A DNA stretch of 45,236 nucleotides, from positions 1 to 45,236 of the forward strand of contig NZ_JAHLPV010000021.1 of assembly GCF_018918095.1 (NCBI RefSeq). The letters are read 5' to 3'. Of the stretch, positions 26,361 through 30,495 are shown piece after piece. The notes below the pieces were generated by a model, which had not been told where the DNA came from, did no database searches, and saw only the letters and a list, made by a program, of their open reading frames with translations. The DNA is from Acetivibrio sp. MSJd-27. GTDB lineage: Bacteria > Bacillota > Clostridia > UMGS1840 > HGM11507. The position numbers and the translations under genes are program-made. Position 1 is the first letter of the stretch. Every line of letters starts with the position of its first letter.

Positions 26361-26438
26361 TGCCCTGTCATTCAACGATTCAGCGGGTACTACACTCCCG
26401 CTGAATAAAGGAGGCGGGGGACATCTTTTTTTCGTTAT
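26361..26438 (-). repeat. Family 1 structured repeat, copy C (truncated)
   Basis: ATAAC, then AAAGATGTCCCCCGCC without the far arm, directly to the central stem AGCGGG/CCCGCT (loop changed), then GTTGAATGACAGGGC. The TTATTGAA end is lost. It lies between the Pho boxes of pstS and the fmdE promoter. Confidence 0.7.
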
Positions 26439-26490
26439 ATCCGTGGAAAAGCAGATCGATTAATAATTGTAAAGAAATCATTTCTCTCTC

Positions 26491-26519
26491 TTGACAGCCA
26501 TTTAATAATCCGATATAAT
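26491..26519 (+). promoter_or_regulatory. Consensus promoter of the fmdE-ABC locus
   Basis: TTGACA (26491-26496) and TATAAT (26514-26519) with a 17-base spacer; the predicted start is near 26526. Confidence 0.8.
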
Positions 26520-26525
26520 AAATAA

Positions 26526-26620
26526 CGTTGCGGCAAGAAGCCGCAATGATAAAGTTTTACCGTAAAAATTGTTTTGATTGAGTTAAGAAGGCTCACATTT
26601 TTTGTGATGCCTTCTTTTTG
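26526..26620 (+). promoter_or_regulatory. Structured leader with terminator before fmdE (candidate riboswitch or attenuator)
   Basis: The leader starts with the hairpin TTGCGGC-AAGAA-GCCGCAA (26528-26546), followed by 40 bases of single-stranded sequence, and ends with AAGAAGGC-TCACA...TGTGATGCCTTC-TTTTT (26586-26620), a terminator just 19 bases before the coding region. A terminator between a strong promoter and its gene suggests regulated readthrough. I do not recognise it as a known riboswitch class. Confidence 0.55.
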
Positions 26621-26638
26621 TTGAGAAAAAAGGAAAGG

Positions 26639-27175
26639 ATGAAGAGGATGAATCAAATGTTTTGGGATACCGCCAGAAAATTTCATGGTCATGAATGTCC
26701 CGGCTTGGCTATCGGTGTAAAAGCCTGCGAGGCCGCTGTAGAAAAAATGGGTGTAATGAGTTCCGAAGATGAGGAACTGGTCTGTGTGACGGAGAATGAT
26801 GCCTGTGGGGTGGACGCCGTCCAGGCAATTCTGGGCTGTTCCCTTGGAAAGGGCAATCTGCTTTATCACAGCACGGGAAAAATGGCCTTCAATTTTTTTG
26901 ACCGCCGCAGCGGAAAAAAACTTCGGATTTGCCTGAAAGCCCGCAATAGCGGCATGGAACGGAAGGCTTATATGAATTATCTGCTTCAAGCGCCTGTCGA
27001 TGAAATTTTTTCTTTCGGCGATCCGAAAATGGAGCTTCCCCCAAAAGCAGGACGCTTTCCCTCCATTCCCTGTGAGATCTGCGGAGAGGCGGCTCCGGAA
27101 CATAAAATGCGGCTTCAAGACGGCAAAAAAGTTTGTCTGGATTGTTTTCATGACTACAGCCGCGGTTGGAAATAA
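26639..27175 (+). CDS. FmdE-like protein with C-terminal zinc ribbon
   Basis: A 178-residue protein (ATG 26639; ATG 26648, MNQMFWDTARK, is equally likely) with AAGGAAAGG/AAAGGA upstream. FHGHECPGLAIGVKACEAA and ENDACGVDAVQAILGCSLGKGNL are FmdE-family motifs with conserved His and Cys; the C-terminus has CEICG...CLDCF, a TraR-like zinc ribbon. FmdE is named after formylmethanofuran dehydrogenase subunit E, but these stand-alone members have no proven function and are often near Mo/W genes. It is upstream of a BtuCD-type importer, which suggests a role in a metal or metal-cofactor pathway. Confidence 0.85.
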   Translation: MKRMNQMFWDTARKFHGHECPGLAIGVKACEAAVEKMGVMSSEDEELVCVTENDACGVDAVQAILGCSLGKGNLLYHSTGKMAFNFFDRRSGKKLRICLKARNSGMERKAYMNYLLQAPVDEIFSFGDPKMELPPKAGRFPSIPCEICGEAAPEHKMRLQDGKKVCLDCFHDYSRGWK

Positions 27176-27264
27176 AAATTTTTTCATCCCGAAAAACGCA
27201 GCCGCGCTTCGCACGCTGTTTCCTGAAACATGAAATTGCGCATGATTTCGCGCAATTTCCTATG

Positions 27265-27381
27265 TTCAATAAGGGGCTATGCCCCGTCATTCAACGTTTT
27301 AGCGGGAGATTGTACTCCCGCTGAAAAAAGTAAGTGGAGCCCGCCTTCTCACGAAGCGGGGGACGTCTTGCTTTTCGTTAT
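27265..27381 (-). repeat. Family 1 structured repeat, copy D (short form)
   Basis: ATAAC, AAGACGTCCCCCGC hairpin, central stem AGCGGGAG/CTCCCGCT (loop TACAAT), end stem GGGGC-ATA-GCCCC, TTATTGAA. It lacks the GGCACTGC stem. It is antisense to fmdE and the following lipoprotein gene, and a perfect ten-base hairpin GAAATTGCGC/GCGCAATTTC (27232-27259) lies five bases beyond its end. Confidence 0.85.
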
Positions 27382-27411
27382 AAAAATGACCTGTCAAAAG
27401 GATTTGATCTT

Positions 27412-28512
27412 ATGAAACAAACTCGAAACCTTTTTTGCCGGACGCTTCTTCTCTCGCTTCTGTTTTGCTCTCTGCTAAGCGGCTGCTCCTCCCGGAGCAC
27501 TGAAATTCCGCAAAACACTGGGCGCACGGTTGTTGATATGATGGGGCGGCAAGTTGTCCTTCCGGCTGAAATCCGCACCATCGCCTCTACAGGAAGCGCT
27601 GCCCGCCTGCTGACTTATGCCGGATGCGCGGACAAGCTTTCCGGCGTAACCGATATGGATAAAAAGAATGATATCGGAATGCCCTACACGGTAGTCAATG
27701 CCGGACATTTTGCTTCTCTTCCCTCCGTCGGAGCCGGCGGAAGCAAGGATATCTGCTATGAAGAGGAGCTTGTAAAGCTGTCTCCCGATGTAATCTTCAG
27801 CAATATGCCTTTGGAAACCGTATCTTCCCTGCAGGAAAAAACAGGAATCCCCGTCATCGGCTTGTCCTATCAAGGCATCTTTGACGAGAGTGTCTGCAAT
27901 GCAATTGATTTGGTGGGTTCCGTCATGGGGACGCAGGAAAAATGCGCGGATGTCGTCCGCTCCATGCAGCAATGGAAAGCAGACTTGGACAGAAGAACAA
28001 GAGATATTCCGGATGAAGAAAAGCCCTCCGTATATACTGGCGCGGTGAGCTTCAAAGGCCCCCATGGCTTTGAGGGCACCTATGCCAATTACCCTCCTTT
28101 CACAGCCATCCATGCGAAAAACGTGGCGGACGAAACCGGCAGGGACGGAGCGCTTAATATTGATCTGGAACAGGTGCTTATCTGGAATCCGGAACTGATT
28201 TTCTTAAATCCCTCCAATCTATATCTGGTCAATGAGGACTATTTGGAAAACAAAGCTTTCTACGAGAATCTTCAAGCCGTGAAAAACGGAAATGTTTATG
28301 CGCAGATATCTTACAACTACAATTCCACCAATATTGAATTTGCCATCGCCGATGCTTACTATGCGGGAAAAATAATGTTCCCGGAGAAATTCTCCGATAT
28401 TGACCCCGCGAAAAAGGCAGATGAAATTTTTGAAGTGATGCTGGGACAGCCTTTTTACAGCCGGCTGGAGGACGCCGGTATCGGCTTCGGAACACTTCGG
28501 ATTGGAGAATAA
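27412..28512 (+). CDS. Metal/chelate-binding lipoprotein of BtuCD-type importer (MolA-like candidate)
   Basis: A 366-residue secreted lipoprotein, start ATG 27412 with AAAGGA upstream. The lipobox SLLSGC gives the lipidated Cys near residue 25. The rest is a class III (TroA/BtuF-type) binding fold: DMMGRQVVLPAEIRTIAS at the start, LSPDVIFSNMPLETV and NPELIFLNPSNL, with a long backbone helix between the lobes. It is closest in kind to FepB/BtuF/MolA proteins, which bind iron chelates, cobalamin or molybdate/tungstate. The fmdE neighbour favours an oxyanion or metal cofactor. Four bases lie before the permease start. Confidence 0.82.
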   Translation: MKQTRNLFCRTLLLSLLFCSLLSGCSSRSTEIPQNTGRTVVDMMGRQVVLPAEIRTIASTGSAARLLTYAGCADKLSGVTDMDKKNDIGMPYTVVNAGHFASLPSVGAGGSKDICYEEELVKLSPDVIFSNMPLETVSSLQEKTGIPVIGLSYQGIFDESVCNAIDLVGSVMGTQEKCADVVRSMQQWKADLDRRTRDIPDEEKPSVYTGAVSFKGPHGFEGTYANYPPFTAIHAKNVADETGRDGALNIDLEQVLIWNPELIFLNPSNLYLVNEDYLENKAFYENLQAVKNGNVYAQISYNYNSTNIEFAIADAYYAGKIMFPEKFSDIDPAKKADEIFEVMLGQPFYSRLEDAGIGFGTLRIGE

Positions 28513-28516
28513 TCCT

Positions 28517-29563
28517 ATGACACAAAGCTATCACAACTATATCCGCAGGAAGATCTGGATCATTGGCGCTTTGGCTCTGCTTTCCATACTCACGGCTCTG
28601 CTCGCCCTGCAGACGGGATCGGCGGCTCTGTCCCTTCGCGACATTTTTTCTGCACTGTTAGGCAATGGTACGGAGAAAACGGCCGCTGTGGTTTGGAACA
28701 TCCGTATGCCGCGGATTGCCGCTGCCGCGGTAGGCGGTATCGGGCTCGCGGTAGTCGGCTGTGTGATGCAGAGCATCCTGAAAAATCCGCTGGCCTCCTC
28801 CTCTACACTGGGTGTTTCCCAAGGAGCGGCTTTCGGCGCATCCTTTGCTATCATCTGTCTTGGTGCAGGTATGCAAGGAAGCACAATGGAATCCATGACG
28901 ATTCAAAATCCGTATCTGGTTTCGATATGTGCATTTGTCAGTTCCATGTTTTCCACACTGATCGTGCTGACGCTTTCCCGTCTGCGAAAAGTATCACCGG
29001 AATCTTTAGTGCTATGCGGCGTAGCGCTCAGTTCACTGTTTTCCGGCGCAACCACCCTGCTGCAATATTTCGCGGATGATGTAAAATTGTCCGCCGTCGT
29101 GTTTTGGACCTTTGGCGATCTGGGTAGGGCGTCCTGGAAGGAGGTCGGCATGATGGCTGCAGTGGTTCTTCTGGCTCTCGTCTATTTTTATTGGAACCGC
29201 TGGAACTATAATGCCTTGCAAAGCGGTGAACACACTGCTAAAGGTCTGGGTGTCAATGTGGATTCCATGCGGATTGTGGGAATGCTTATCTGTTCTCTGA
29301 CCGCATCTGTTATCGTGTCCTTTGTGGGAATCATCAATTTTATCGGACTGATTGCTCCCCACCTGGTACGTCGTTTTGTTGGAAGCGATTACCGTTATCT
29401 AATACCTGCCTCCGCACTGGCTGGCGCCCTCCTTCTGCTGGTGAGCGACACTGCCGCCCGCCTTGTCATCTCTCCGGTAATCCTGCCCATCGGGGCAATC
29501 ACTTCTTTCTGCGGTGCCCCTTTGTTTCTCTATATACTATTCAAGGGAGTGGGAAAAAAATGA
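28517..29563 (+). CDS. FecCD/BtuC-type permease
   Basis: A 348-residue membrane protein with about 9-10 transmembrane helices. The start at ATG 28517 follows GGAGAATAATCCT. Family landmarks are MPRIAAAAVGGIGLAVVGCVMQ, NPLASSSTLGVSQGAAFGA, and FIGLIAPHLVRRFVGSDYR (the L-loop that docks the ATPase). It imports the ligand of the upstream lipoprotein. Its last bases overlap the ATPase start. Confidence 0.93.
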   Translation: MTQSYHNYIRRKIWIIGALALLSILTALLALQTGSAALSLRDIFSALLGNGTEKTAAVVWNIRMPRIAAAAVGGIGLAVVGCVMQSILKNPLASSSTLGVSQGAAFGASFAIICLGAGMQGSTMESMTIQNPYLVSICAFVSSMFSTLIVLTLSRLRKVSPESLVLCGVALSSLFSGATTLLQYFADDVKLSAVVFWTFGDLGRASWKEVGMMAAVVLLALVYFYWNRWNYNALQSGEHTAKGLGVNVDSMRIVGMLICSLTASVIVSFVGIINFIGLIAPHLVRRFVGSDYRYLIPASALAGALLLLVSDTAARLVISPVILPIGAITSFCGAPLFLYILFKGVGKK

Positions 29564-30324
29564 TTCGCACGCAACACTTGGAATTTGCTTATCAGCCAGA
29601 CAAAAAAATATTGGATGATATCTGCTTTCAAGCGGAAGCTGGCTCCTGCACTGCTATCTTAGGAAATAACGGTGCGGGAAAGAGCACGCTTTTGAAATGC
29701 CTGAACCATATTCTTGTTCCAAAGAGCGGAACCGTCTATTTAAACGGCAGGGATCTGCAGCCAATGCGGCGCGGAGAAATCGCCCGCAGCATTGCCTATG
29801 TGGCCCAGCATGCGGAAACCGCTCGGTTCACCGTCTATGACACCGTTCTTTTGGGGCGGAAACCCTATATCAAGGTCAATCCCACATCGCAGGACTATGC
29901 GCTTGTGGAATCCATTTTAAGCCGGATGGCACTTTCTTCCATGGCTCTGTCCTATATCGATGAACTAAGCGGCGGGGAATTGCAAAAGGTCATGCTGGCA
30001 AGAGCGCTTGCACAACAGCCGAAGGTTCTCCTGCTGGATGAACCCACCAGCAGCCTGGATCTGAAAAATCAATATGAAACCCTCAAGCTGGTTAAAAAAA
30101 TGGCGGAAGAAGAAAAGTTCTGTGTGATTATGGTAATCCACGACTTAAATCTGGCGCTGCGCTATTGTGACAAATTTGTATTTTTAAAGAATAACCGGGT
30201 TTTCTGTCACGGCGGACTCGACTGTATCACCTCTGAGGTAATCGGTCAGGTCTACAGTATCCCAGCGGTTATCTGGCAATTTAACGACATACCGGTCGTC
30301 GTGCCGCTTCCAGAAAAACAATAA
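29560..30324 (+). CDS. ABC transporter ATPase (FepC/BtuD type)
   Basis: A 254-residue ATPase starting at ATG 29560, overlapping the permease stop (ATGA). Walker A GNNGAGKST, signature LSGGELQKVMLARALAQ, Walker B VLLLDEPTSSLD, and H-loop MVIHDLNLALRY. It drives the same importer. A hairpin terminator follows. Confidence 0.95.
   Translation: MIRTQHLEFAYQPDKKILDDICFQAEAGSCTAILGNNGAGKSTLLKCLNHILVPKSGTVYLNGRDLQPMRRGEIARSIAYVAQHAETARFTVYDTVLLGRKPYIKVNPTSQDYALVESILSRMALSSMALSYIDELSGGELQKVMLARALAQQPKVLLLDEPTSSLDLKNQYETLKLVKKMAEEEKFCVIMVIHDLNLALRYCDKFVFLKNNRVFCHGGLDCITSEVIGQVYSIPAVIWQFNDIPVVVPLPEKQ

Positions 30325-30377: not shown

Positions 30378-30495
<118 letters not shown>

Follow-up and report, generated by a model that had tools for sequence, protein, structure and literature searches.

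A conserved tandem-hairpin leader of fmdE-ABC transporter operons in Clostridia and its probable role in the control of nickel import

A 45,236-nt stretch of DNA from Acetivibrio sp. MSJd-27 (assembly GCF_018918095.1, contig NZ_JAHLPV010000021.1, positions 1 to 45,236; the whole analysed stretch is hereafter called the window) contains, at positions 26,491–30,324, an operon encoding an FmdE protein and an ATP-binding cassette (ABC) importer, preceded by an RNA leader. The leader is conserved and, to our knowledge, has not been described before; it is probably an attenuator that controls nickel import. It carries two small hairpins (P1 and P2) with the same pentaloop of the form ANGAA, the second of which excludes an intrinsic terminator. 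It is rather probable that the operon specifies an importer of nickel, or possibly of a nickel/cobalt chelate, in which FmdE has an accessory role, and that its transcription is attenuated through the tandem hairpins, read by a trans-acting factor.

Structure and conservation of the leader

The following features were identified in the region (positions within the window).

26491–26519, + strand: sigma-70 type promoter driving the leader (TTGACA-17-TATAAT; 12/12 matches in a consensus scan)
26526–26548, + strand: P1 hairpin, 9 bp, CGTTGCGGC-AAGAA-GCCGCAATG; pentaloop AAGAA, at the predicted extreme 5′ end of the transcript
26579–26595, + strand: P2 hairpin, 6 bp, TGAGTT-AAGAA-GGCTCA; pentaloop AAGAA, proposed antiterminator excluding the terminator
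26585–26620, + strand: intrinsic terminator (stem 26585–26616, T tract to about 26620), with a 5′ arm common to P2
26648–27175, + strand: fmdE (PF02663, E 1.8e-33), with a C-terminal C4 (dksA/traR) zinc finger
27412–28512, + strand: lipoprotein substrate-binding protein (SBP; PF01497; closest solved structure 2etv, E 2.1e-81)
28517–29563, + strand: FecCD/BtuC-type permease (domain match, PF01032)
29560–30324, + strand: ABC transporter ATPase (domain match, PF00005)

The initial annotation of this DNA had recognized a perfect promoter (26491–26519), an intrinsic terminator just before fmdE (26586–26620, the start here placed one position further upstream) and the gene order fmdE, lipoprotein, permease, ATPase, all of which were borne out, the last by the domain matches. 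The hairpin that it located at 26528–26546 is present, but its extent had to be redrawn. P2, whose loop is identical to that of P1, had been overlooked.

The leader is about 120–127 nt long, and its 127-nt form folds with an energy of −37.7 kcal/mol (z −5.15 versus shuffled sequences); 27 nt separate the end of the terminator from the start of fmdE. Since the 5′ arm of the terminator is the alternative 3′ arm of P2, the two structures are mutually exclusive, giving a two-hairpin architecture in which the second hairpin competes with termination. Folding of the growing transcript indicated that P2 appears once the RNA reaches position 26596 and is later displaced by the terminator (−33.3 kcal/mol, compared to −21.7 kcal/mol with P2 forced). 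Because of this displacement P2 would need a partner to persist, and in the folding model it has the properties of a partner-dependent antiterminator. A simple terminator scan of the region performed no better than chance (12 found, 10.0 expected from shuffles), and therefore the signal is carried by the tandem loop and its conservation, and not by the terminator alone.

No other fmdE was found in the window's own order, which has few sequenced members; within the class Clostridia, FmdE relatives are present in 35 of 391 genomes, representing 28 of 222 genera. A search of genome contigs with a single protein query gave no match, and the relatives were recovered by an alignment-based scan, among them loci from Syntrophomonas, Desulfosporosinus, Sporomusa, Eubacterium, Acetivibrio, Clostridium and Spirochaetes (metagenome-assembled genomes). 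The fmdE-SBP-permease-ATPase set is kept in the larger regions of these relatives, with varying gene order.

Hairpins with an ANGAA pentaloop occurred 16 times in the first 39 upstream regions, compared to 2.6 expected from shuffles. The complete tandem pattern (a P1 stem of 5 bp or more and a following P2, both with ANGAA, and then an overlapping terminator) was matched 24 times in 1.23 Mb of sequence (105 loci). The reversed sequence yielded no match, and neither did 12 of 13 other loop patterns, the remaining one, ANGGA, giving two. All 24 matches lie directly upstream of fmdE-operon genes: fmdE itself, an S-adenosylmethionine (SAM)-methyltransferase gene where this comes first, and, once, the SBP gene.

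Covariation was observed in the P1 stem. In an alignment of 14 leaders (A2), five of seven pairs change on both sides (covariation score 0.344, compared to at most 0.127 with slid partners), and in a model-fitted alignment of 53 matches (A4) all seven do so (0.484 compared to at most 0.143). Among 55 distinct ANGAA hairpins, every pair type occurs in the stems, loop position 2 is free, and 53 are closed by C-G, U-A or U-G (Y-R). Free stems combined with a fixed loop and a Y-R closing pair are what would be expected of RNA recognized through its loop. The distance between P1 and P2 in relatives ranges from 12 to 81 nt. The comparison of leaders of fmdE-ABC loci, originally proposed as a check, thus revealed a leader conserved in orthologs, with covarying structure.

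Genes behind the leader and the probable substrate

A covariance model (R1) was built from the fmdE leaders alone and run over the 391 Clostridia genomes, after which the downstream genes were read. This analysis gave 26 matches at E ≤ 0.001. Seven are located at fmdE operons and ten before CbiM/NikMN-type energy-coupling factor (ECF) transporters, of which several have a PDGLE domain. Three are found upstream of genes for NikA-type binding proteins. Of the single matches, one is followed by DUF3842 and then nikA, one by larE (operon larEBC-ABC-fmdE) and one by an ECF S component together with a methyltransferase. The remaining three (G023:C43, G379:C21 and G260:C36:50873) are not followed by a nickel gene and were left unassigned. 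In the relatives, the same leader therefore forms a regulon with NikMN/CbiM, NikABC-type and larEBC operons. The fmdE loci themselves contain nikABC-type genes (12–14 loci), larBCE (4–5 loci) and cbiM (5 loci).

The window's own leader was missed by R1 because it belongs to a divergent subtype with the terminator AAGAAGGC..GCCTTCTT. Four weak R1 matches in the same genome were not retained; of these, three were read, and they precede unrelated genes. A further subtype, found in syntrophs and Oscillospirales (L070, L073, L076, L077, L084, L085 and L087), has a long P1 followed immediately by an extra hairpin before P2 (e.g. GCAGAT-ATGAA-GTCTGC) and is nearer to the window's subtype than to R1. 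Leaders upstream of fmdE in Desulfosporosinus (L098–L104, L128 and L129) carry AGACC-ATGGA-GGTCT hairpins, whose ANGGA loops resemble CsrA sites.

Some additional gene families recur at these loci. fmdE is regularly accompanied by a class I SAM-methyltransferase gene (33 loci, including L040–L048, L057–L059, L084 and L091), which is often the first gene of the operon. The ECF S component lies behind the same leader at L184:5086-5625, L215:5207-5746 and L216:5176-5751, with a different methyltransferase in L184 and L215, and is a possible new nickel (chelate) importer. DUF3842 (PF12953) has its own copy of the leader at L199:6464-6874 and adjoins the fmdE loci L080 and L131, among others; by this association the family appears tied to nickel.

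In the window, the lipoprotein SBP, FecCD permease and ATPase form a BtuFCD/FecBCD-type importer encoded in a single operon. FmdE has the characteristics of its family, i.e. a metal site composed of FHGHxC and a distal cysteine, and a C4 treble clef; residues H13, H15, C17, C53, C142, C145, C163 and C166 are invariant in 30 sequences. By position, the HHCC site (H13, H15, C17, C53) matches His15/His17/Cys19/Cys55 of a Desulfitobacterium homolog whose crystal contained Zn and Ni in the metal site (PMC2954224). In the lipoprotein family a single histidine (H218) and two arginines (R46 and R65) are invariant, a pattern compatible with a metal chelate but no proof of one.

The initial annotation had viewed the operon as an importer of molybdate or tungstate, or of a molybdenum cofactor (Moco). 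The family name FmdE and the fold, which is common to MolBCA-type importers, speak for this assignment, but the neighbours and the regulon (NikABC(DE), CbiM/NikMN and LarBCE) consist of nickel/cobalt genes. Moreover, genes with PF02663 mostly adjoin metal-ion transporter genes and only in a few cases formylmethanofuran dehydrogenase (PMC2954224). The window's own genome encodes LarC (E 1.2e-141) and LarB, parts of the pathway of the nickel-pincer cofactor. Mob_synth_C, the C-terminal domain of MoaA, was not found in this genome and was present in 11 of 14 control genomes, so the strain has no evident Moco pathway, which leaves room for other molybdenum use. The molybdenum/tungsten assignment is therefore unsupported, and we consider it highly improbable. 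The regulon and the neighbourhood suggest that the importer is most likely one for nickel, with cobalt as an alternative for some CbiM members; CbiM itself was not found in the window's genome. A comparable case is NiuBDE of Helicobacter pylori, a FecD/FecE-type ABC importer annotated as an iron transporter that carries nickel, cobalt and bismuth (PMC5140060). It is related to the window's transporter at the family level only and differs in lacking FmdE, in being a NikR target, and in that no comparable leader has been described for it.

Two other elements were noted in the vicinity. A 5S rRNA gene (30378–30494, − strand) ends about 54 nt past the ATPase stop codon and has its own promoter with 12/12 consensus matches (30529–30502). 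An element starting with TCATTCAACG[A/T]TT[C/T]AGCGGG is present in two copies, one on either side of fmdE (26368–26440 and 27287–27390), the second within the strongly structured gap between fmdE and the SBP gene (z −5.6); no further copy was detected in the fetched loci, which include about half of the window's own genome.

Recognition of the tandem hairpins

In the proposed mechanism, P1 and subsequently the terminator would form by default in the nascent leader, and transcription would halt before fmdE. When nickel is short, a trans-acting factor, most likely a metal-free protein, would recognize the two ANGAA pentaloops and stabilize P2, which takes the 5′ arm of the terminator and allows the polymerase to read through. 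FmdE would then act as an accessory nickel-handling protein of the importer. Holding of P2 would switch the operon on, and importers are expected to be active when metal is scarce; this favours a factor that acts without bound metal over direct Ni2+ binding.

The same consideration bears on a protein-free alternative, in which the tandem hairpins would constitute a riboswitch for Ni2+, Co2+ or a nickel cofactor, comparable to the two-hairpin guanidine-II RNAs. No candidate protein was found in all the carriers checked, a repeated loop of fixed sequence is compatible with direct recognition, and the controlled genes are metal importers. However, Ni2+ stabilizing P2 would switch the importers on at nickel plenty, i.e. 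in the wrong direction; each hairpin is tiny, the P1-P2 spacing is widely variable, and free stems with a fixed loop resemble a protein site. A riboswitch is thus conceivable but unlikely.

Three protein families were considered as the factor that would read the leader. An ANTAR protein could bind P1 and P2 and antiterminate like EutV: the architecture, with P2 in the 5′ arm of the terminator, is the same (PMC3369931), and ANTAR proteins are encoded in 15 of 20 carrier genomes, including the window's own. Nevertheless, known targets are hexaloops with A1 and G4, compared to a pentaloop ANGAA with G3 here, and no ANTAR match was found in the other five carriers (G148, G037, G200, G321 and G353; 97–100% complete), which excludes ANTAR as a universal factor and makes such recognition very unlikely. 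FmdE could alternatively bind its own leader and autoregulate, since fmdE is the commonest gene behind it and an RNA-binding or metal-sensing role has been proposed for the FmdE zinc finger (PMC2954224). This has little chance of being correct, as 13 of the 20 carriers (most above 97% complete) have the leader at other nickel genes and no PF02663 match, so that FmdE was rejected as the universal factor. CsrA was likewise rejected, with no PF02599 found in the window's own genome (G000) or in G321.

Several points weigh against a nickel-responsive attenuator read by a protein. The candidate trans-acting factors FmdE, ANTAR and CsrA are each missing from some carriers. The tandem scan pattern was drawn from the same loci on which it was scanned, and for this reason the controls with other loops outweigh the raw count of 24 matches. 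Alignment A4 was obtained by fitting to the structure, with some weak matches among its members, the E-values of R1 are rough, and P2 comprises just 2–3 bp in many relatives. The window copy is the sole tandem ANGAA-plus-terminator element in the 1.59 Mb (52%) of its own genome that was scanned, with no second tandem leader there, and the LarB and LarC genes of this genome have no leader in front. Finally, cobalt is also a possible substrate of CbiM-type transporters, and the present data do not distinguish it from nickel.

Relation to known control systems and significance

The leader would function in the manner of an ANTAR target, yet is very unlikely to be one. With the targets of this class (the EutV/eutP, NasR/nasF and AmiR/amiE leaders) it shares two small hairpins, fixed loop bases, free stems and the overlap of the second hairpin with the 5′ arm of the terminator. 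It differs in its pentaloop ANGAA, compared to the hexanucleotide loop consensus AxxGxx of ANTAR targets (PMC3369931, PMC8934654), in the 12–81 nt spacing of its hairpins, in its nickel/cobalt regulon and in the existence of carriers without ANTAR. The ANGRA loop form is shared with CsrA/RsmE sites (ANGGA loops), but CsrA needs GGA, whereas ANGAA prevails here (24 versus 2 matches), and the window's own genome has no CsrA.

The NiCo (czcD) riboswitch, which controls efflux, is likewise a cis-acting RNA tied to nickel/cobalt homeostasis in Firmicutes, with a different fold. No covariance-model match to any Rfam family, NiCo and Moco included, was obtained at these leaders, and a known riboswitch was rejected on this ground. 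A search of the open-access literature on FmdE with nickel or ABC transporters, and on nickel with antitermination or RNA motifs, found no description of the element, although absence from such literature is no proof. The conservation and covariation of the leader and its absence from Rfam support the earlier suggestion that it is a regulated attenuator of a new kind.

In NikR regulons, nickel import genes are also governed by the nickel supply, but by a protein acting on DNA, whereas the leader would act as RNA. NikR is absent from over half of the organisms that have NikABCDE (PMC2667541), and control independent of NikR is therefore to be expected. On balance, the leader probably represents a new class of nickel-responsive RNA attenuators in Clostridia, in which an antiterminator protein or nickel itself reads the ANGAA hairpins, and which would govern FmdE-ABC, NikMN, NikABC and Lar operons and supply such NikR-independent control.

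Many Clostridia depend on nickel enzymes, and a conserved RNA element marking nickel-uptake operons would provide a direct handle on their NikR-independent nickel control. It also suggests a probable substrate for FmdE-linked BtuCD-type importers, so far annotated merely as "iron/cobalamin", and a probable role for FmdE, which has lacked an assigned function ever since its structures became available. The leader offers an immediate means of searching for more nickel genes.

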